Part shown: positions 42,850 to 51,476 of the stretch, piece by piece
How positions within the stretch are numbered: the first letter of the stretch is position 1
Layout: every line of letters starts with the position of its first letter
Source: Malaciobacter halophilus
GTDB lineage: Bacteria; Campylobacterota; Campylobacteria; Campylobacterales; Arcobacteraceae
Length of the DNA stretch: 51,589 nt
Reading direction: 5' to 3'
Assembly (NCBI RefSeq): GCF_002837275.1
Contig: NZ_NXIF01000031.1
Location: forward strand, 1-51,589
Translations under genes and position numbers: made by a program
The notes under the pieces: generated by a model
What the model was told of the DNA's origin: nothing
Databases searched by the model: none
What the model saw: the letters and a program-made list of their open reading frames with translations, nothing else

Positions 42850-43461
42850 CTAATCCTTCAATGGAGGTAGTTGCCATCCTTTATAGTAAGCAAGCATTCT
42901 TGTTGTAATACCTAAAGCAAGTAGTGTTATGATATAAAAAATTGTATTTAATCCTACAAGGTGTAAGATGTAATATGTTATACCAACTCCAAAACTTATT
43001 GTTCCATAAAGACCTGTTCTCATAAACCATGGTACTTCATTTAGAAGAATATCTCTTAAGATACCCCCTCCAACTCCATTAAAAAATGCAACAAATGCAA
43101 CACCAAATATGTTGTAACCAAATTCAATTGCTATCATTGCCCCAACTATAGAAAAACATATGACATCAATGGCATCAGCAAATATAAAAATAAATTTTTT
43201 TTCAAGTTCATGTTTTTTGTAAACTTTAAAAAATCTGGAGATAAATAAAACTACAATAACAATAAGTACTGGCATATAGTGAGTAAAAGAGTAAATATCT
43301 CTACTTACGAGAACATCTCTTATTATTCCACCACCTAATGCTGTTAAAAAAGCTGCTATAAATAATCCAAGCCAATCACAACCTTTTTTTACGCCAAATA
43401 AAAAGCCACTAAGTGCAGCTGATGCGATTCCTATATATTCAATAAATAAAATAATATCCAT
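42850..43461 (-). CDS. TRIC-family (UPF0126) cation channel protein
   Basis: Prokaryotic TRIC channels are trimeric K+-permeable membrane proteins. The 203-aa protein has seven predicted membrane helices in two repeats, each with the glycine-rich signature: 'ALGGGIIRDVLVSRD' and 'GVGGGILRDILLNEVPW'. AGGAAAT precedes the ATG and TATAAA lies upstream on the minus strand. It is usually a core gene, so it probably flanks the island on the right, though a third copy of the integrase-side 9-mer lies just beyond its start. Confidence 0.9.
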   Translation of the reverse strand: MDIILFIEYIGIASAALSGFLFGVKKGCDWLGLFIAAFLTALGGGIIRDVLVSRDIYSFTHYMPVLIVIVVLFISRFFKVYKKHELEKKFIFIFADAIDVICFSIVGAMIAIEFGYNIFGVAFVAFFNGVGGGILRDILLNEVPWFMRTGLYGTISFGVGITYYILHLVGLNTIFYIITLLALGITTRMLAYYKGWQLPPLKD

Positions 43462-43578
43462 ATTTCCTACTTAAATAAAGTACCGTATTTTATACCTACT
43501 ATGCATAAAAATGAATAAATTTGAAGACTATTGGTTTAAAAGCTTGAGTTTATAAGTTTTGTTATTATTTGTGAAGAT

Positions 43579-43606
43579 AAAAAGGCACGAAAACGTGCCT
43601 TTTTTT
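43579..43606. terminator. Terminator of the torA gene
   Basis: GGCACG and CGTGCC form a strong stem around AAAA, extended by A/T pairs on both sides. On the minus strand the stem is followed by TTTTT, immediately after the torA stop. It can also act on the plus strand. Confidence 0.85.
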
Positions 43607-46076
43607 ATAAGCTTTGAACAATTTTTGGTTTTGTAAAAGCGTTTATAGGTTTCAATTCACCTTTGAATTTTTCAATTTCAACTAATGCAGTATGAGCAAT
43701 ATTACTTTGAGCTAATTTTGATGTTCCTTTATCTATAGTAAGAACATTTACATTACCATGTTGGCAAAGTGTTTTATCTCCTAAGTTTTCAGGTGAGTAC
43801 CAAGCTCCTTCGCATAATACAGCAACTTCATCTATTACAGCATCTGTTACATAAACACCAGCTAAAATTTCACCTCTATCATTAAATACTCTTGCAATAT
43901 CACCTGTTTTTAATCCTCTTCTTTTAGCTTCTTTAGGATTGATTAGTACAGGTTCTCTTCCACTTATTTCATATAAACCTCTAATAAATGTATTATTTAA
44001 TTGAGAGTGTAGTCTATATTTAGAGTGTGGACTAATAATATGCATTGGATATTTTTTAGTCTGTTTTTTATCACCTAACCACTCAATTGGTTCCATCCAA
44101 GTTGGGTGTCCTTTACAATCATCATAATTAAACTTAGCAATTACCGGAGAATAAATTTCAATTTTTCCTGAAGGTGTACCAAGTCTATGTTTATATGGAT
44201 TTTCTCTAAAGTCAGTATATCTAGTATAATTTTGAGTAGCTTTATCGTCATCCTCAAATCTTACATACCCTTTTTCCCAGAATTTATCAAATGATGGCAT
44301 TTTTAAATTCATAGCTTTTGCTTTTTGTACAGCATCTTCATAGATATATTTAACCCACTCTAATTCAGTTTTTTCTTCTGTAAATACTTCTTCATATCCC
44401 CATCTTTTACAAAGTTCTTTACAAATCCAGAAATCACTTTGGCTTTCACCTGCTGGTTTAACATGTGCTTTTCTAGCAATAATATACTCTTTTGTTCCAC
44501 CTGTTTGGTCAATATCAACTCTTTCAAGTTCTGTTGCTACAGGAAATACAATATCAGACATTTTTGCAGTAGAAGTCCAGTAAGGTTCAGCTGTAATTAC
44601 AGTATCAACTTTTTTCCATTGTTCAATCATATTATTTACATCATGGTGTCTTGTAAGTGGTGAACCAGATGCATTATACATTAATCTAATATGTGGAAGT
44701 TTGATTTTTTTCCCATTTTGGTCTAAATCTTCTCCTGGTCTTTGAATTGCTTCAATTGATCTTGATGAAGGAATTACAACATCATGATGTTTTAACCAAG
44801 GTGCATTTGGATATTTTTTATTATATTTTTCAGGAATAGATTGGCTAATACCAGTAATTGTAGGAGCTAACTTATCTGTTGCACCACTTGAATTATATGC
44901 AAGTGAGAACTCAATTCCTCCACCTGGTAATCCCATGTGTCCTAGCATTGCTGCTAATACTGTGCACATCCAGTGAGCTTGCTCTCCATGGTCTTGTCTT
45001 TGTAGTGCTCTACCGCATAATAGTACTGTTCTTTCTTTTGCTAATGTTGTTGCAAATTTAGCAATTGTTTTTTCATCAACACCACATATTTTAGATGCCC
45101 ATTTTATATCTTTTTCTTGACCATCTTCTTTACCTAATAGATATTTTTTAAATTTATTGAAACCAACAGTATATTTTCTTATGAATTTTTCGTCATATAG
45201 TTTTTTTGTATATAAATAGTGTGCCATACCAATCATTAAAGCTACATCTGTATTTGGTTTTACTGCAATGTGTTCTGCATCTAAGAATTTTTGTGTATCA
45301 TTCTTTCTTGGGTCTACACTAAATGCTTTAATTTTACCACTAAACACTGCAGCTTGTAGTTTTTCATAATCTTTGTAACATCTATGAAGTGGTGTAGACC
45401 AAGTAATTTGGTTTGTAACTAATGGATCACAACCCCACACAACAACATTTTTTGCATTTTCAATAATTGATTTCCATTTTGTTGGAGTATCATATACAGA
45501 AGAACCCCCAAGAACGTGAGGCATAATAACAAGACCAGCACCAGTAGAGTAATCACCTGATTCAGTAACAAATCCACCTAAAATTCTCATCATTCTTCTT
45601 GATACAGTTCGTCCCCAACTTACTCTACCAGAACCACCCCACCAGTAGCATTCACCATAGATACTTTCAGGTCCATGTTTATCAAATGTATCTCTCATGT
45701 GTTTTGCTGCTAAATCAAGTGCAACATCCCAAGATACTCTTACAAACTCTTCTTTCCCTCTTAGATGGTTATTTGAAGGACCTTTTGCTTTAAGAAATGA
45801 TTTTCTAACCATAGGATATTCAACTCTAGTTTGATTTTGAATTCTATCAGCAGCTGCTTTTATCATAGGGCTTGGGAAATAGTCACCTTTAAATGCTTTA
45901 GTTTCTAAAACTTCTCCACTTTGAATTACTGCTTCAAACATACCAAATCTATTTGAACTTAATACTGTTTTTCTATCAAAATTAGTTAAATCTGCCCAAC
46001 CATCAAAACCTTTTGCTTTTACAGTTGTTGCTGCACCAAGAATCGAACCATATTTTATAAAATCTCTTCTTTTCAT
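43605..46076 (-). CDS. torA: TorA-type periplasmic molybdenum reductase (TMAO/DMSO/biotin sulfoxide group)
   Basis: An 823-aa bis-MGD molybdoenzyme of the DMSO reductase family, group III (no N-terminal FeS cluster). A twin-arginine signal starts 'KRRDFIKYG', so it is exported folded to the periplasm. The Mo-ligand Ser is S177 in 'GDYSTGAG'; the motifs 'YGECYWWGGSGRVSWGR', 'VVWGCDPLVTNQ' and the C-terminal 'INPKEAKRRGLKTGDIARVF' agree with TorA/DorA enzymes. It lies directly behind a monohaem cytochrome c gene, as in Campylobacter Cj0265c-Cj0264c, where the pair reduces TMAO and DMSO. AAAGGAG precedes the ATG. The exact substrate is inferred. Confidence 0.88.
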   Translation of the reverse strand: MKRRDFIKYGSILGAATTVKAKGFDGWADLTNFDRKTVLSSNRFGMFEAVIQSGEVLETKAFKGDYFPSPMIKAAADRIQNQTRVEYPMVRKSFLKAKGPSNNHLRGKEEFVRVSWDVALDLAAKHMRDTFDKHGPESIYGECYWWGGSGRVSWGRTVSRRMMRILGGFVTESGDYSTGAGLVIMPHVLGGSSVYDTPTKWKSIIENAKNVVVWGCDPLVTNQITWSTPLHRCYKDYEKLQAAVFSGKIKAFSVDPRKNDTQKFLDAEHIAVKPNTDVALMIGMAHYLYTKKLYDEKFIRKYTVGFNKFKKYLLGKEDGQEKDIKWASKICGVDEKTIAKFATTLAKERTVLLCGRALQRQDHGEQAHWMCTVLAAMLGHMGLPGGGIEFSLAYNSSGATDKLAPTITGISQSIPEKYNKKYPNAPWLKHHDVVIPSSRSIEAIQRPGEDLDQNGKKIKLPHIRLMYNASGSPLTRHHDVNNMIEQWKKVDTVITAEPYWTSTAKMSDIVFPVATELERVDIDQTGGTKEYIIARKAHVKPAGESQSDFWICKELCKRWGYEEVFTEEKTELEWVKYIYEDAVQKAKAMNLKMPSFDKFWEKGYVRFEDDDKATQNYTRYTDFRENPYKHRLGTPSGKIEIYSPVIAKFNYDDCKGHPTWMEPIEWLGDKKQTKKYPMHIISPHSKYRLHSQLNNTFIRGLYEISGREPVLINPKEAKRRGLKTGDIARVFNDRGEILAGVYVTDAVIDEVAVLCEGAWYSPENLGDKTLCQHGNVNVLTIDKGTSKLAQSNIAHTALVEIEKFKGELKPINAFTKPKIVQSL

Positions 46077-46087
46077 TTTAAACTCCT

Positions 46088-46675
46088 TTATTTTGCATCA
46101 GCCGCATGTTGCTGAAGATATTTAATGATTAAATTTTTTGTTTTAGGTTCAAGTGTTACTTGTTCCATCATACTCTCAATTTGTTGTGGCCATTGATTTA
46201 CAGTATAAGCATTAGATGCAGGTAAATGGTGGCACATTGAACAACTTTGTTCATAAGTTTTTTTAGCTTTAAGTTTTAATTTATCAGGATTTTTTGCAAT
46301 ATTTTTTGTATCTATTGTAAAAACACCTTCAACTTCGTGCCAAATTTCACCATAATCATCTTCATGTTTTTTGATAGTTTTAAAGTATTTGTTTGAGCTT
46401 TCTTCATCTTTAAACTCAGCATATAACTCTTTTCTTTTTAAGTCTCTAACTATCATTTGAGGATAATTTTCTAATCTATATCCTTTTATTTTAATAGTTG
46501 CCTTATTTGCTTGCTTTTTTACTACATCAATTGGAGTTAAGACAGTTATAAAACCTAAGTCTTTTCCATTTTGTAGTATTTTTGTTCGCTCATTGATTAC
46601 GGAATCTTGAGCAAAAGTAAAGCTTGTTAATGAAATTAAACTTAACAATAACAAACTTTTTTTAAGTCTTCTCAT
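46088..46675 (-). CDS. Monohaem cytochrome c, electron donor to the TorA-type reductase
   Basis: A 195-aa secreted protein. Signal peptide 1-22 with cleavage after 'FTFA'. The N-terminal ~130 residues are a non-haem domain; the C-terminal part has one haem site C145-S-M-C148-H149 and Met residues near 169-170 that may be the sixth ligand. It should pass electrons from the menaquinol pool to the downstream reductase (11-bp gap). AGGAG lies 7-8 nt before the ATG. Regulator-like direct repeats lie upstream. Confidence 0.87.
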   Translation of the reverse strand: MRRLKKSLLLLSLISLTSFTFAQDSVINERTKILQNGKDLGFITVLTPIDVVKKQANKATIKIKGYRLENYPQMIVRDLKRKELYAEFKDEESSNKYFKTIKKHEDDYGEIWHEVEGVFTIDTKNIAKNPDKLKLKAKKTYEQSCSMCHHLPASNAYTVNQWPQQIESMMEQVTLEPKTKNLIIKYLQQHAADAK

Positions 46676-46707
46676 TTAGTGTCTCCTATATTTGTCTTTC
46701 AACAAAT

Positions 46708-46736
46708 GTTATAAGAAGAGTATAAAAAAAGTATAA
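46708..46736 (-). promoter_or_regulatory. Three 11-bp-spaced direct repeats upstream of the cytochrome-torA operon
   Basis: On the minus strand TTATACT (46736-46730), TTATACT (46725-46719) and TTATAAC (46714-46708) recur every 11 bp, one helical turn. OmpR-family regulators bind such tandem direct repeats, and one is encoded by the neighbouring gene. The last repeat could double as a -10 box (TATAAC). A small inverted repeat ATTTGT/ACAAAT lies between it and the ribosome site. Confidence 0.5.
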
Positions 46737-46770
46737 TCTTTTATTTTTTATTTAATAAAAAAAAATAAAA

Positions 46771-47460
46771 TTATTTTAATGTTAATTTATAACCAATTCC
46801 TTGGATATTCTCAATAAGTTCTGGATAGATTTTTTTTCTTAGTTTATTGATAAACATTCTTATGGCATCTGGAGTAGCTCCATTCTCACTCCAAACATAA
46901 CTCTCAATTAAAGAAAATGGCACAGTATGCTCTTGATGTTTAATTAGTAGTTCTAAAAGTTTTTGTTCTTTTCTTGTAAGATTTATATGCTCATTTTTTT
47001 GTTTTAGTTCTTTTGTTTCAATATTATAATTAAAATTATTTTTTAATTTTAAAATTTTAAAGTCATCATTAAAAGAGGAAATAGCTAAACCCATTGAGAT
47101 TAATAATTGCTTTTTATCAAAGGGTTTTATTAAGATACTTTTACTTTTTAGTTCAATTGCTTTAAGCATATTTTCATCTGTGTCATATGCAGTTAAAAAT
47201 ATTAAAGGTATATTAGGGTCAATCTCTCTTATTTCACTACTCATTTTTAAACCATTCATTTTTGCCATATGAATATCTGAAATTATTAAATCAATAGAGT
47301 TTGTTTTGAAAACTTCAAGTCCTTCAAGTCCATTAATAGCAGTATAAACACAATTAACATATTCTTGAATAGATTCAACTATTATCTCTTGTAAACTTAT
47401 TTCATCTTCAACGATTAAAATATTTTTATTCTCTAATAACTTAGTAATTTTATTATACAT
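46771..47460 (-). CDS. OmpR-family response regulator
   Basis: A 229-aa two-domain regulator. Receiver: E18/D19/E20 pocket ('LIVEDE'), phospho-acceptor D62 ('LIISDIHMAKMNG'), Thr in 'FLTAYD', Lys in 'LIKPFD'. Effector: winged helix from about residue 155 ('INLTRKEQKLLELLI', 'DAIRMFINKLRKKI', 'IQGIGYKL'). I start at ATG 47460, which has GGAG 6 nt upstream; an in-frame TTG at 47472 is weaker. The first codons overlap the kinase gene by 8 bp. It lies between the kinase gene and the cytochrome-torA operon and probably controls the latter through the repeats at 46708-46736. Confidence 0.92.
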   Translation of the reverse strand: MYNKITKLLENKNILIVEDEISLQEIIVESIQEYVNCVYTAINGLEGLEVFKTNSIDLIISDIHMAKMNGLKMSSEIREIDPNIPLIFLTAYDTDENMLKAIELKSKSILIKPFDKKQLLISMGLAISSFNDDFKILKLKNNFNYNIETKELKQKNEHINLTRKEQKLLELLIKHQEHTVPFSLIESYVWSENGATPDAIRMFINKLRKKIYPELIENIQGIGYKLTLK

Positions 47461-49468
47461 CGCTCTCTCCAAATTTTATTAAAAATTTTGTTGGGTCTTT
47501 ATAATTTGATAAAGATATTTCACCATTCATTTTATTTTCTACTAATAGTTTGCACAAATATAATCCTGTTCCCGTTCCTTGTGCTTTTGTAGTAAAAAAT
47601 GGTTCAAATAGTTTTTCTTTATTATCTTTAGATATACCTCTTCCATTATCTTGAATAGTTAAGTAAAATTGATTATTTTCTTTTTTTAAAGTAATACTTA
47701 TTTTTGCTTCAAATAGAGGTGTTTGACGTAAAATCAAACATAATTCATCTTTTGCATTACTAATTAAGTTAATTAAAACTTGTTTTATATATGAAGGATA
47801 GCTATTGCAAGTATAGTTGATATCTTTGTCATATTTAAACTCAAGTTCAATTCCATTGATTTTCATTTGAGGTAGAGTTATTAAAAGGATTTCATCAATA
47901 GTTTTGATTAAATCAAACTCTCTTTTATCAAAATCTTCTTTATAGAAATTTCTAAAAGCATTTACTGTCTCATTCATAAGCTCAATAGTATCTCTTGACC
48001 TTGATAAAAACCTACTAGCTTTATATAAAGAGTTTTTTTCTACTATCTCTTCAGCATTACTAATTAGCATTAAAAGAGTACTTAATGGCTGTCTCCATTG
48101 GTGAGAAATTGCACTTACCATCTCTCCTAGTGCTGCCATTTTACTATTTTGTATTAGTAATTGTTCTTGTTCACTCTCTTTTTTTTCTAAATATTTTTCA
48201 TGACTAATATCATTTAGTGTAATAATAGTTCCTTCTAATTGTTTTTGAAACTTATTTAATAAAGGAGTTATTTGTACACGATAGACTTTATTATTTTTTT
48301 GTAAGTTGTAAGATTTTACAGTAAATAGGCTCTTTTTAATATCATGAAAACTTTTTAGTTCATTTATATTTTTTTTATTTTTTAAAACAGGAAGAATAGT
48401 ATCTAAAGGCTTTTCATAAAGACTTTTACTTTTAATATTAAAAATTTGTTCAAAAACCTTATTTATAAAAATAATATTTCCATTTTTATCTGTTAATAAA
48501 ATTCCCCAAGTAGGACTTTTGGCAAAATGTCCTAATAATAAATGTTTTTCATAAAGTTTTTTTTGTGTAATTGACATAAAGATTATTGTTCCAAGTCCTA
48601 ATATAAAAAGGATTAATGATGAAATTAGATTCATAAATAGTTGTTGATTTAAAGTCTTAAAAATCTCTTTTTTTTCTAAAACAGAAACAAATAACCAATC
48701 ACTATTTTTTAAGCTTTCATAAGTGAAAATAAACTCTTCACCTTTTAAGTTAAAAGTTTTATCTCCTTTTTTTTGTTTTGAGAAGCTTTGCAAAAATGCT
48801 TTTAATTTACTATTATTAAAATCAAGACCTAATTTATTTGATTGTACAATTACTTCAGATTCACTTGTCATCAAAAAGGCAAAACCTTTTTTTACAGGAA
48901 ATAGTTCAGATAGCTCTTTTTGTACAGAATTTAATTCTAAATCACTTGACATAACTGCTAAAAGTTTACCATTTTTATCATATATAGGTGAAGCAATACT
49001 TATGTAAAGTTTATCTTCAAATCCAGCTGAACCTACATAAGGTTTTGAAATTGTTGTTGTTCTTTTTTCAATAGCTTCAATATACCAAGGTCTTTTTGTT
49101 GCAATATAATCATCTGAATAGTACCAGTCTGTTCTTCCTGAGATTGTGAAGTTATCTGGATAAGAGATATAAACACTTTTAAAACCATCTCCTGAAATCA
49201 TAGCAGTAGTTAACATCTCTTTTATTGAATCAAAATCTCTAAATCTATCTTTTTTTATTAGTTTTTTCCCCATAGTCTCAACGATTCTTTTTAATGCAGA
49301 TAATCTTTCATCAAACTTTTGTTTATATGAACTTACAAGTTTTAATTGACTATGAATTGTTGTATCAAGTAAGTAGCTTCTATTTTTATTATATGTAGTA
49401 CAAATAACAAAAATATATACAAGGAAAAATATAATAGATATAAGAATATAAACTCTATTTCTTTTCAT
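47453..49468 (-). CDS. dCache-PAS sensor histidine kinase
   Basis: A 671-aa membrane kinase. Helix 1 (about 6-24), periplasmic dCache domain (about 30-275), helix 2 (about 279-300), PAS domain (about 312-430), H-box 'ISHQWRQPLSTLL' with phospho-acceptor H456, and HATPase with N-box 'NLISNAKDEL', G1 'DNGRGI' and G2 'GTGTGLYL'. In the sensor Y121, R126, W128 and Y129 ('YIATKRPWY') and D176 resemble the conserved ligand motif of amino-acid/amine-binding dCache domains. I choose ATG 49468 (AAAGG upstream); a TTG at 49504 is in frame. It overlaps the regulator gene by 8 bp, so the pair is cognate. Confidence 0.9.
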   Translation of the reverse strand: MKRNRVYILISIIFFLVYIFVICTTYNKNRSYLLDTTIHSQLKLVSSYKQKFDERLSALKRIVETMGKKLIKKDRFRDFDSIKEMLTTAMISGDGFKSVYISYPDNFTISGRTDWYYSDDYIATKRPWYIEAIEKRTTTISKPYVGSAGFEDKLYISIASPIYDKNGKLLAVMSSDLELNSVQKELSELFPVKKGFAFLMTSESEVIVQSNKLGLDFNNSKLKAFLQSFSKQKKGDKTFNLKGEEFIFTYESLKNSDWLFVSVLEKKEIFKTLNQQLFMNLISSLILFILGLGTIIFMSITQKKLYEKHLLLGHFAKSPTWGILLTDKNGNIIFINKVFEQIFNIKSKSLYEKPLDTILPVLKNKKNINELKSFHDIKKSLFTVKSYNLQKNNKVYRVQITPLLNKFQKQLEGTIITLNDISHEKYLEKKESEQEQLLIQNSKMAALGEMVSAISHQWRQPLSTLLMLISNAEEIVEKNSLYKASRFLSRSRDTIELMNETVNAFRNFYKEDFDKREFDLIKTIDEILLITLPQMKINGIELEFKYDKDINYTCNSYPSYIKQVLINLISNAKDELCLILRQTPLFEAKISITLKKENNQFYLTIQDNGRGISKDNKEKLFEPFFTTKAQGTGTGLYLCKLLVENKMNGEISLSNYKDPTKFLIKFGESDV

Positions 49469-49626
49469 ACGACTAATACCTTTGACACATTTTAAATATT
49501 TCAATAAAGTAATAATAGTATAGTTTTTCTAAAATATAATTATTATTAAAAATATTTTTTAATTTATTAAGTTCTAAAAATACACAAGATAGCACAAAAC
49601 TTATACTCATATAAAAATAATACTAT

Positions 49627-49632
49627 TATAAT
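49627..49632 (+). promoter_or_regulatory. -10 box of the Ni/Co uptake operon
   Basis: TATAAT 28 bp before the ATG of the DUF4198 gene; AGGGGA follows as ribosome site. I see no convincing NikR-type palindrome in the 155-bp gap. Confidence 0.45.
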
Positions 49633-49659
49633 TAAAAAAATCAAGTTTAGGGGAAAATT

Positions 49660-50382
49660 ATGAAGAAGTTATTAGCTATATTATCAATTGCAGTGGTGGC
49701 AAATGCTCACTTTTTAACTATGCTTCCATCAACAGATAATGTAAAAAGTCAAAAAGAGGCAGATTTAAAAATTGAGTCTATGTTTATTCATCCTTTTGAA
49801 CAAACAGGCATGCAAATGGTAAAACCTGAAGGTATTTACGTAAATAGTAAACAAAATAGATTAAAATTAAAACAAATTGAAAAGTTTAATAAAAAAGCTT
49901 GGAAAACATCATACAAAATTAAAAGACCAGGTGTTTATAAGTTTTTTACTATTCCAAAACCATATTTTGAACCAAGTGAAGGAAAGTTTATTTCACATGT
50001 ACCAAAAATTATAGTAAGTGCGTACGGTTTAGAAGAGGGTTGGGATGAACCAATAGGTTTAAAATATGAAATTATTCCTATGTCTAAGCCATTTGCTTTA
50101 TATAAAGGAAATATATTTACGGGAAAAGTTTTACACAATGGTAAACCAGCTTCAAATGTTGAAGTTGAGGTTGAGTTATATAATGAATTTAATTTAAAAG
50201 CACCAACTGATGCTCATATTACACAAGTTGTTAAAACAGATGAAAATGGTAATTTCTCTTTTGTAATGAACCATAAAGGATGGTGGGGATTTGCCGCACT
50301 TATAGAAGAGGGTGAGAAATTAAAAGATGGAAAAAAATATCCAATAGAAAATGGTGCTTTACTTTGGATAAAAGCTTATTAA
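49660..50382 (+). CDS. DUF4198 periplasmic metal-binding protein (NikK-like) of a Ni/Co ECF transporter
   Basis: A 240-aa secreted protein. Signal peptide 1-16 ends 'VANA' and the mature protein begins with His ('HFLTMLPSTD'). The rest is a DUF4198 beta-sandwich, including 'GKVLHNGKPASNVEVEVELY' and 'TDENGNFSFVMNHKGWWGFA'. NikK-type proteins supply Ni2+ or Co2+ to the CbiM/NikM membrane component. It is the first gene of an operon; cbiM/nikM follows after 12 bp. Nickel versus cobalt cannot be decided from sequence alone. Confidence 0.8.
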   Translation: MKKLLAILSIAVVANAHFLTMLPSTDNVKSQKEADLKIESMFIHPFEQTGMQMVKPEGIYVNSKQNRLKLKQIEKFNKKAWKTSYKIKRPGVYKFFTIPKPYFEPSEGKFISHVPKIIVSAYGLEEGWDEPIGLKYEIIPMSKPFALYKGNIFTGKVLHNGKPASNVEVEVELYNEFNLKAPTDAHITQVVKTDENGNFSFVMNHKGWWGFAALIEEGEKLKDGKKYPIENGALLWIKAY

Positions 50383-50394
50383 GAAGAAGGTAAA

Positions 50395-50997
50395 ATGCAT
50401 ATATCAGATGGAATTTTAAGTCCCGAAGTAGCAACTACATTAGCTGTAGTTGGTGGGGCTATGTGTCTATACTCTTTAAAAGAGATAAAAAATGAAAATA
50501 TTGCTTTAAGTGCAGCTATGAGTGCACTTTTTTTTGTAGCATCGTTTATTCATATTCCTTTAGGACCTACTCAAATACATCTAATTTTAGTAGGAGTTAT
50601 AGGATTGTTTTTAGGAAGACTTAGTTTTCTTCCAATTAGTATTGCTTTAATATTACAAGCTACTATGTTAGGTTATGGCGGAGTAACCTCTTTAGGAGCA
50701 AATATTGTTATTATGGCACTACCTGCGTATTTAGTTCATTTAATATTTAAAGCTAATTTTGTACAAAAAATTAATGAAAAAGTTAAGTTCTTTTTTGTTG
50801 GCTTTTTAGGGGTTTTTTTTGCAACAGTAATTTTAGCTTTAGTTTTATTATTTGCAAAAGATGAATATTTAATTGCTTCTTATACAGTAGTTGCAGCAAA
50901 TGTTCCAGCTATGGTTTTAGAAGGTATAATTACACTATTTTTATTAATGTATATAAAAAAAGCTATGCCTTCTTTATTAAAAGAGTATAAAATATGA
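50395..50997 (+). CDS. cbiM: CbiM/NikM-type substrate-binding membrane subunit of a Ni/Co ECF transporter
   Basis: A 200-aa membrane protein with about six or seven helices. It starts 'MHISDG', the metal-binding N-terminus of CbiM/NikM where the amino group and His2 hold the ion. A further His lies in 'PLGPTQIHLIL', at the position of the conserved second His loop. The stop overlaps the next ATG by 4 bp (ATGA). Family subunits CbiQ and CbiO are expected downstream; the start of CbiQ is visible. Confidence 0.9.
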   Translation: MHISDGILSPEVATTLAVVGGAMCLYSLKEIKNENIALSAAMSALFFVASFIHIPLGPTQIHLILVGVIGLFLGRLSFLPISIALILQATMLGYGGVTSLGANIVIMALPAYLVHLIFKANFVQKINEKVKFFFVGFLGVFFATVILALVLLFAKDEYLIASYTVVAANVPAMVLEGIITLFLLMYIKKAMPSLLKEYKI

Positions 50998-51476
50998 GAC
51001 TAATTTTTTTACTAACATTTCTTTGTTTATCATTATTTGCACATAGATTAAATCTATTTACTACTTATGAAGAAGATAATTTATTTATTAATGCATATTT
51101 TGCAAATGGAAATGGATGTCAAAATTGTAAGATTACAATAAAAGATGAAAATGGAAATGTAATAAAAAATCTATTTACAGATAAAAAAGGGGAAGCTATA
51201 CTTAAGCTTCCTAAAAATAATGTTACATTAATAGTTGATGCCAAAGGTGGTCATATTGTGACTAAAAAACTTACTTTTCATAAGGCAACAAAAAAAAGTA
51301 ATACTAAAAACATTGAAGAAGAATCAAAAAGTAAACTTCAAATGGAAAATGAAAAACTAAAAGCAGAGATTAAATCTTTACAAGCAAAGCTTGAAGCTTT
51401 TAATTTTTTAAAAACTATTTTTGCACTTTTAGTTATAATAGGGATATTTTATATTTTAAAAAGAGTTAAAAGATGA
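50994..51476 (+). CDS. NikL-like accessory protein of the Ni/Co transporter
   Basis: A 160-aa protein: signal peptide 1-16 ('FLCLSLFA'), mature N-terminal His ('HRLNLF'), a small beta domain (about 17-95) with C-Q-N-C ('NGCQNCKI'), a Lys/Glu-rich coiled coil (about 100-135) and one C-terminal membrane helix (138-156). This is the layout of NikL subunits, which replace CbiN. It overlaps cbiM by 4 bp upstream and the next gene by 4 bp downstream, so all are coupled. Confidence 0.8.
   Translation: MRLIFLLTFLCLSLFAHRLNLFTTYEEDNLFINAYFANGNGCQNCKITIKDENGNVIKNLFTDKKGEAILKLPKNNVTLIVDAKGGHIVTKKLTFHKATKKSNTKNIEEESKSKLQMENEKLKAEIKSLQAKLEAFNFLKTIFALLVIIGIFYILKRVKR

Follow-up and report, generated by a model that had tools for sequence, protein, structure and literature searches.

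The window analysed here is a 51,589-nt stretch of Malaciobacter halophilus DNA (NCBI RefSeq assembly GCF_002837275.1, contig NZ_NXIF01000031.1, forward strand), and our subject is a short tandem repeat at positions 46708 to 46736, which lies between a two-component system and a cytochrome-torA operon. On the minus strand the order is a histidine kinase gene (HK1, 47453–49468), a response regulator gene (RR1, 46771–47460), a gap, a c-type cytochrome gene (46088–46675) and a gene for a TorA-like periplasmic S/N-oxide reductase (43605–46076). The HK1 and RR1 open reading frames (ORFs) overlap, and both starts were placed at an ATG within a TTG-initiated ORF. By its domain composition RR1 is a response regulator of the OmpR/PhoB family, with a receiver domain (Pfam Response_reg, 82.2 bits, 3.8e-23) and a winged-helix domain (Trans_reg_C, 51.3 bits, 1.2e-13) both above cutoff. 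HK1 is a membrane histidine kinase with a dCache_1 sensor (1.7e-16), a PAS domain, a HisKA-like region (23.9 bits, under the Pfam cutoff of 26.9) and a HATPase_c domain (73.4 bits, 2.5e-20, above cutoff); adjacency alone makes it the presumed cognate kinase of RR1. The cytochrome, first gene of the putative target operon, is monohaem, with CSMCH as its single CxxCH, and resembles the C-terminal part of TorC: it matches positions 226–382 of the 387 in the NCBIfam torC model (69.7 bits, below the cutoff of 478.2). The reductase has the twin-arginine signal RRDFIK and falls slightly short of two models (bisC_fam, 954.6 against a cutoff of 1017.55; PRK15102 TorA, 868.8 against 909).

The gap between the RR1 stop and the cytochrome start measures 95 bp and reads on the minus strand, in succession, AAAGA (46737–46741), TTATACT (46730–46736, half-site 1), TTTT, TTATACT (46719–46725, half-site 2), CTTCTTA and TAACAT (46706–46711), the last of which we take as a putative -10 hexamer from its fixed distance to the boxes. 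A third 7-mer, TTATAAC (46708–46714), overlaps this hexamer, and AGGAGA at 46682–46687 is the probable ribosome-binding site of the cytochrome gene. An earlier note on this DNA had described three TTATA-containing 7-mers at exact 11-bp steps, next to a regulator gene of the OmpR family and upstream of the cytochrome-torA operon. Both the repeat (minus strand, 46736–46730, 46725–46719 and 46714–46708) and the gene order are as it described.

Within the gap the triple is unusual. TTATA did not recur three times at 11 bp in any of 20,000 dinucleotide shuffles, some non-homopolymer 5-mer did so in 22 of 5,000 shuffles, and with any equal step of 9–12 bp allowed the number rose to 72 of 5,000. The AT-rich genome of 2.75 Mb holds two exact triples, the sole other one being an 11-bp tandem in an intergenic region close to a transporter-like gene (L117:1452–1478, G000:C45), and with up to one mismatch 42 places were found versus 34 for the reversed control pattern. 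The triple is therefore unusual in this gap yet not genome-wide, and by itself it is a weak signal. Because of the second exact copy and the many copies with one mismatch, its significance rests on conservation and not on genome counts.

RR1 orthologues were called at E ≤ 1e-60 among 104 genomes of the family and were found in nine: the window genome G000 and G001, G003, G004, G005, G014, G108, G109 and G110. RR2, a paralogue of RR1 in G000 and G003, passes this threshold too, and G004 and G005 are near copies of each other, so that the number of independent promoters is nearer 8 than 9. A cytochrome-torA operon (hereafter torCA) follows the regulator in all nine genomes. Half-site 1 is TTATACT in 9/9 promoters, half-site 2 is TTATACT in 8/9 and TTATGCT in the remaining one, the step between the two is 11 bp throughout, and in every case a TAnnnT hexamer has an offset of 25 from half-site 1. 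Over the nine promoters 14 of the 18 operator columns are invariant, compared with none of the 24 columns upstream (-30 to -7) and 3 of the 29 downstream (+31 to +59). The flank just before half-site 1 is also kept, AAAG being invariant (9/9) and the last A present in 8/9. With TAnnnT taken as the -10 element, half-site 1 falls near -37 to -31 and half-site 2 near -26 to -20. At the third place TTATA occurs only in G000, G004 and G005, the other six promoters having CAATA, GCATA, TCATA and three times CCATA, while TAnnnT is there in all nine. We therefore rejected three half-sites and read the third 7-mer as the edge of the -10 element, a part of the basic promoter. Of the three-site operator that had been proposed, the two 11-bp-phased half-sites stand and keep their step in all relatives with this gene order, and the third box does not, with TTATA in 3/9. 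As judged from this conservation, the two boxes are a tandem operator of OmpR/PhoB type.

The pattern also tracks the regulator. The exact 18-base two-box pattern has 23 sites in 19 of the 104 family genomes, eight of them among the nine RR1 genomes and 11 among the other 95. We then combined the boxes with the promoter element in a 31-base pattern, TTATACTTnnTTTATACT-N7-TAnnnT, and ran it on the nine RR1 genomes and on 14 genomes of the same two genera that lack RR1 (no match at E ≤ 1e-60). With up to one mismatch it has 13 sites, which cover 9/9 RR1 genomes and 0/14 of the RR1-less ones: eight torCA1 promoters, torCA2 of G108, torCA3 of G014, the kinase promoters of G108 and G110, and a relic in G109. 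Six of these, the torCA1 promoters of G000, G001, G003, G004, G005 and G014, had served to define the pattern, and the torCA3 site of G014 had already been seen. In the G109 relic (L069:2951–4373, contig C63) a sensor-less kinase and only the tail of a regulator are left, the operator is intact, and the whole adjoins an HK3-RR3 pair. Exact two-box 18-mers of RR1-less genomes were also noted near genes for enzymes of the twin-arginine translocation (Tat) type (L048:1501, L050:1518).

A natural exchange of parts shows which partner the operator follows. The window genome carries a second, paralogous module, HK2-RR2-cytochrome-TorA2 (G000:C57, L076 2439–8268), with the boxes TTCATAG and TTCACAC 11 bp apart, and in both G000 and G003 TorCA2 adjoins RR2 and these boxes. 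In G108, RR1 is 86% identical to RR1 of G109 and 50–52% to RR2, the reductase is 88% identical to TorA2 and 48–50% to TorA1, and the cytochrome is 60–64% identical to that of TorCA2 and 21–27% to that of TorCA1. The operator before this TorCA2 is nevertheless of the RR1 type (TTATACT/TTATACT). G108 thus pairs RR1 with TorCA2 and keeps the RR1-type operator, which means that the operator goes with the regulator and not with the reductase. This bears on whether another regulator of the OmpR family in the same cell, and not RR1, uses the site. The genome is rich in such proteins, with 85 first-look candidates for RR1 including RR2 at 49% identity. The site, however, tracks the presence of RR1, the operon of RR2 has different boxes, and G108 keeps RR1 together with the box despite its other reductase paralogue, all of which makes use by another regulator very improbable.

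Profile searches for regulators of this clade were extended to 398 genomes of the order and to 44 genomes of one family. We compared 24 regulators, namely 18 matches of at least 235 bits from the search of the order together with RR1 of G003, G108, G109 and G110, RR2 of G003 and RR3 of G110; in all 24 modules the half-sites are 11 bp apart. The presumed recognition helix of RR1 is TPDAIRMFINKLR, and 20 of the 24 regulators share its asparagine in I-N-K/N-L-R (N-type). In N-type modules half-site 1 is TTATACT (19/20) or TTATAGT (1/20), half-site 2 is TTATACT, TTATGCT, TTATTCT, TTACACT or, in G045, TCATACT, and TAnnnT lies at offset 25 in 20/20; conservation of the AAAGA flank does not extend to the N-type modules beyond RR1. 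The other four regulators (RR2 of G000 and G003, and those of G315 and G341) have K or Y at this helix position, and their modules carry (A/T)TCA(C/T)A boxes 11 bp apart with TAnnnT at offset 26. This box pattern, which was written after the four had been seen, arose in 0–1 of 3,000 shuffles per region and is absent from the other 22 loci. Helix residue and box base change together across the 24 modules, and the K/Y state needs two changes on the tree, in which the placement of G341 is unsure owing to long branches. Further regulators of the OmpR family directly upstream of other genes have different helices and promoters. At loci L153, L154, L158, L162, L166, L168, L170–L173 and L175–L178 the downstream gene is one that we take to be ccoN, and at L156, L157, L159, L164 and L174 it is presumably a Tat-type enzyme.

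A second set of 30 genomes comprised 10 with N-type and 2 with K/Y-type regulators and 18 controls, half of the 36 family members without a regulator at 235 bits. The 31-base pattern had been fixed before the modules of this set were read, and the count came after inspection of the ten N-type modules, so that the set is partly held-out. With up to one mismatch the pattern was found in 9/10 N-type, 0/2 K/Y-type and 0/18 control genomes, with 14 sites versus 2 for the reversed pattern. Of the 14 sites, eight precede torCA or nrfHA, four precede an operon that starts with a kinase gene or joins porin and kinase, G374 has one in front of a porin gene, and the last falls within a G449 ORF. In G374 the torCA promoter itself shows two mismatches to the 18-base pattern. 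Among the targets are torCA operons convergent to the regulator gene, in G245 and, at two mismatches, in G451. In G449, G261 and G045 the operator stands before nrfH and the regulator pair follows nrfHA (L181:10064, L182:3488, L185:9896). The NrfH and NrfA models were run for L181 only, the NrfH model scoring above cutoff in G449, and nrfHA of G261 and G045 are named by likeness. Operators also precede porin-like genes (L195:930, L183:1510, L184:1117), of which the gene at L183 matches the Opr porin model below cutoff and the porin of G374 is encoded on a different contig from the reductase module. A related arrangement, TTAAAAT/TTATACT/TTATACT at 11-bp steps, lies about 260 bp upstream of an nrfHA-like pair at L056:1490–1518 (G110:C4:37997–38025), where the exact pair has no TAnnnT at the usual offset. 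At L011 and L012, upstream of position 1501, there is yet another kind of kinase-cytochrome-torA locus, whose cytochrome gene is preceded by repeats, CCCACTTTTTTCCCACTTTTTT being one example.

Searching kinase-operon promoters with the 18-base pattern, we found two boxes in 5 of the 8 readable RR1 genomes, at up to one mismatch in G110, G108 and G014 and at two in G001 and G003; in G014 another ORF lies between site and kinase. The kinase promoters of G299, G164, G231 and G338 have two boxes as well. Of the six places listed for the 31-base pattern in G000, only the window site has at most one mismatch, and we claim none of the other five as a further regulon member. Those on C33 and C40 are inside listed ORFs, the one on C31 is intergenic, and the remaining two are on C14 and C94. 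The site on C31 (L112:1500–1530) is a two-box site about 310 bp before a molybdoenzyme-like gene, with one mismatch to the 18-base and two to the 31-base pattern.

Taken together, the site is very probably the operator and promoter of the cytochrome-torA operon to which RR1 would bind as an activator. HK1 would respond to a periplasmic signal and phosphorylate RR1. Two RR1 monomers would then bind TTATACT-N4-TTATACT (46736–46719) in head-to-tail orientation on one face of the helix, and the two-box element, at about -37 to -20, would replace the -35 box. Bound there, RR1 would recruit or stabilise RNA polymerase at TAACAT (46711–46706) and so turn on the cytochrome and torA genes. Direct control of the operon by the adjacent kinase-regulator pair, which had been predicted from this window before, is well supported by the comparative data, the binding itself being a prediction.

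Several points weigh against this reading. Exact copies of the 18-mer are present, too, in 11 of the 95 RR1-less family genomes (12 sites), and the exact copy in G014 sits away from the module. The sites of G108–G110 were known from the 18-base pattern before the 31-base pattern was written. With up to two mismatches the 31-base pattern loses its specificity, giving 86 sites versus 84 for the reversed control and occurring in all 23 genomes, and the N-type site of G451 appears only at this level. The genomes are related, so p-values overstate their independence. The kinase promoters of G000, G004 and G005 have no recognisable box, and autoregulation through this box is not supported in the window genome. 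In a motif-free scan for 7-bp repeats at 11 bp before TAnnnT, 6-of-7 repeats were present in 18 regions, these boxes accounting for 8 and other sequences for 10.

One rival reading is that the repeats are only a periodic A/T-rich signal with stacked -10-like elements, belonging to a constitutive sigma-70 promoter as in Campylobacter and read by no dedicated regulator. TTATACT does resemble a -10 element, the third 7-mer overlaps one, and loose matches are as frequent as those of reversed controls. Against this, letters other than T are conserved in both boxes, and with up to one mismatch the pattern is missing both from the 14 genomes of the two genera that lack RR1 and from 20 more that have no N-type regulator of the clade. 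In the motif-free scan, moreover, perfect repeats in this geometry were confined to 11 of 266 upstream regions of ATG-started ORFs, 9 before a cytochrome and 2 before a kinase gene, in 25 loci that were picked for these modules, so that this proportion is not a genome-wide rate. We regard a merely constitutive promoter as highly unlikely.

A different question is the sign of control, for RR1 might occupy both boxes as a repressor until a signal removes it. The boxes (-37 to -20) are in the region that polymerase occupies, the evidence for binding is the same, and a place just upstream of the -10 element suits occlusion equally. The choice of activation is one that we infer, and this too counts against the reading given above. 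The fixed offset to the -10 element (25 in 20 N-type and 26 in four K/Y-type modules) would fit class II activation better. So would the result of a sigma-70 consensus scan of 43000–51000, which gave 34 sites versus 49.2 expected from shuffles and none in the gap, where no promoter with a -35 box was found. TorR, an OmpR-family regulator of torCAD, is described as an activator in PMC9239176, and Campylobacter promoters are reported to be without a clear -35 box in PMC3656092; given such promoters, a dimer bound at this position most likely recruits polymerase. Repression is possible and in our view unlikely.

As to the signal that RR1 activation would answer, the HK1 sensor aligns to dCache domains of chemoreceptors (best 6iop, 9.5e-16; PctA 5ltx, 1.2e-8) and retains the six residues of the dCache amino-acid motif (PctA Y121, R126, W128, Y129, Y144 and D173). 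All six are kept in 16 of 18 aligned Cache-bearing kinases, a set that includes two nrfHA kinases and leaves out those of G005, G014, G109, G338, G245 and G261 (three of them split); a nineteenth kinase, of G341, is without Cache. The motif predicts an amino-acid-like ligand and not trimethylamine N-oxide (TMAO). We rejected it as a clue to a torCA-specific signal, these two nrfHA kinases having the residues too, and for that reason an amino-acid-like signal is only a lead. A candidate signal for HK1 is methionine sulfoxide, since a reductase of the same kind, BisA in Campylobacter concisus, allows growth on this compound and also repairs it where it occurs within proteins (PMC10653797).

More tentatively, the module may be a portable regulator-operator cassette of Campylobacterota. 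One kinase-regulator lineage would carry its own two-box promoter to adjoining respiratory operons (TorCA paralogues, nrfHA, porin), and the change of N to K/Y in I-N-K-L-R would go with the replacement of A by C as third base of each box, insulating paralogous TMAO-type systems in one cell, here those of RR1 and RR2. Since the amino-acid motif is retained in their sensors, what these kinases detect may be an oxide resembling an amino acid, for example methionine sulfoxide, rather than TMAO. This general scheme is possible, though we hold it as less likely to be right than wrong. The prediction made here joins a regulator with its operator, its targets and a candidate specificity residue, and the natural regulator swap lends it built-in support.

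Beyond the module, the window holds at 49660–51476 three genes that diverge from HK1, namely a DUF4198 gene, a transporter gene and one more. We take the transporter to be CbiM-like and the group to be presumably concerned with nickel/cobalt uptake.

Among known systems the module is most readily compared with TorRS-torCAD of gamma-proteobacteria, which likewise has a regulator of the OmpR family, repeated boxes before torC-torA and two-component control of TMAO-type respiration. HK1 differs in having its own dCache sensor. An identity with TorRS was rejected on four tests: RR1 scores 63.9 bits against the TorR cutoff of 275, HK1 scores 60.4 against the TorS cutoff of 676.5, the best match in the gap to the Tor box, given as CTGTTCATAT in excerpts of PMC9239176, is 8/10 at a spacer that varies among the nine promoters, and in place of a pentahaem TorC there is a cytochrome with one CxxCH that matches the torC model at its C-terminal part only. 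The module would thus work like TorRS and PhoB-type systems and is not TorRS.

In the pho box, two half-sites 11 bp apart lie where the -35 box would be. PhoB and other class II activators of the OmpR family share this layout with the operator described here, which has another sequence (TTATACT) and other targets. The DccR box of C. jejuni, WTTCAC-N6-TTCACW, has TTCAC directly repeated at 11 bp, much as do the boxes found with the K/Y-helix regulators, and its regulon differs. The periodic RpoD promoter of Campylobacter differs in turn, as the present operator conserves particular letters, which go with a single regulator lineage. RacRS of C. jejuni is named as a two-component system for low-oxygen growth with TMAO or nitrate in part of PMC6682613, and RacR binds DNA when phosphorylated according to excerpts of PMC4456614. 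The targets given there are others (aspA, gltBD, ggt and a cytochrome c peroxidase), its ggt site lies about 80 bp upstream of the start, and no adjacent reductase operon is described in these excerpts. In the literature surveyed, partly in excerpt, RacRS and an effect of CsrA on TorA are mentioned; a regulator dedicated to a TMAO-type reductase operon is not described there for Campylobacterota, nor is this two-box system. On the comparative evidence, the conserved two-half-site operator is real, and it is a new example of the tandem operator of OmpR/PhoB type.
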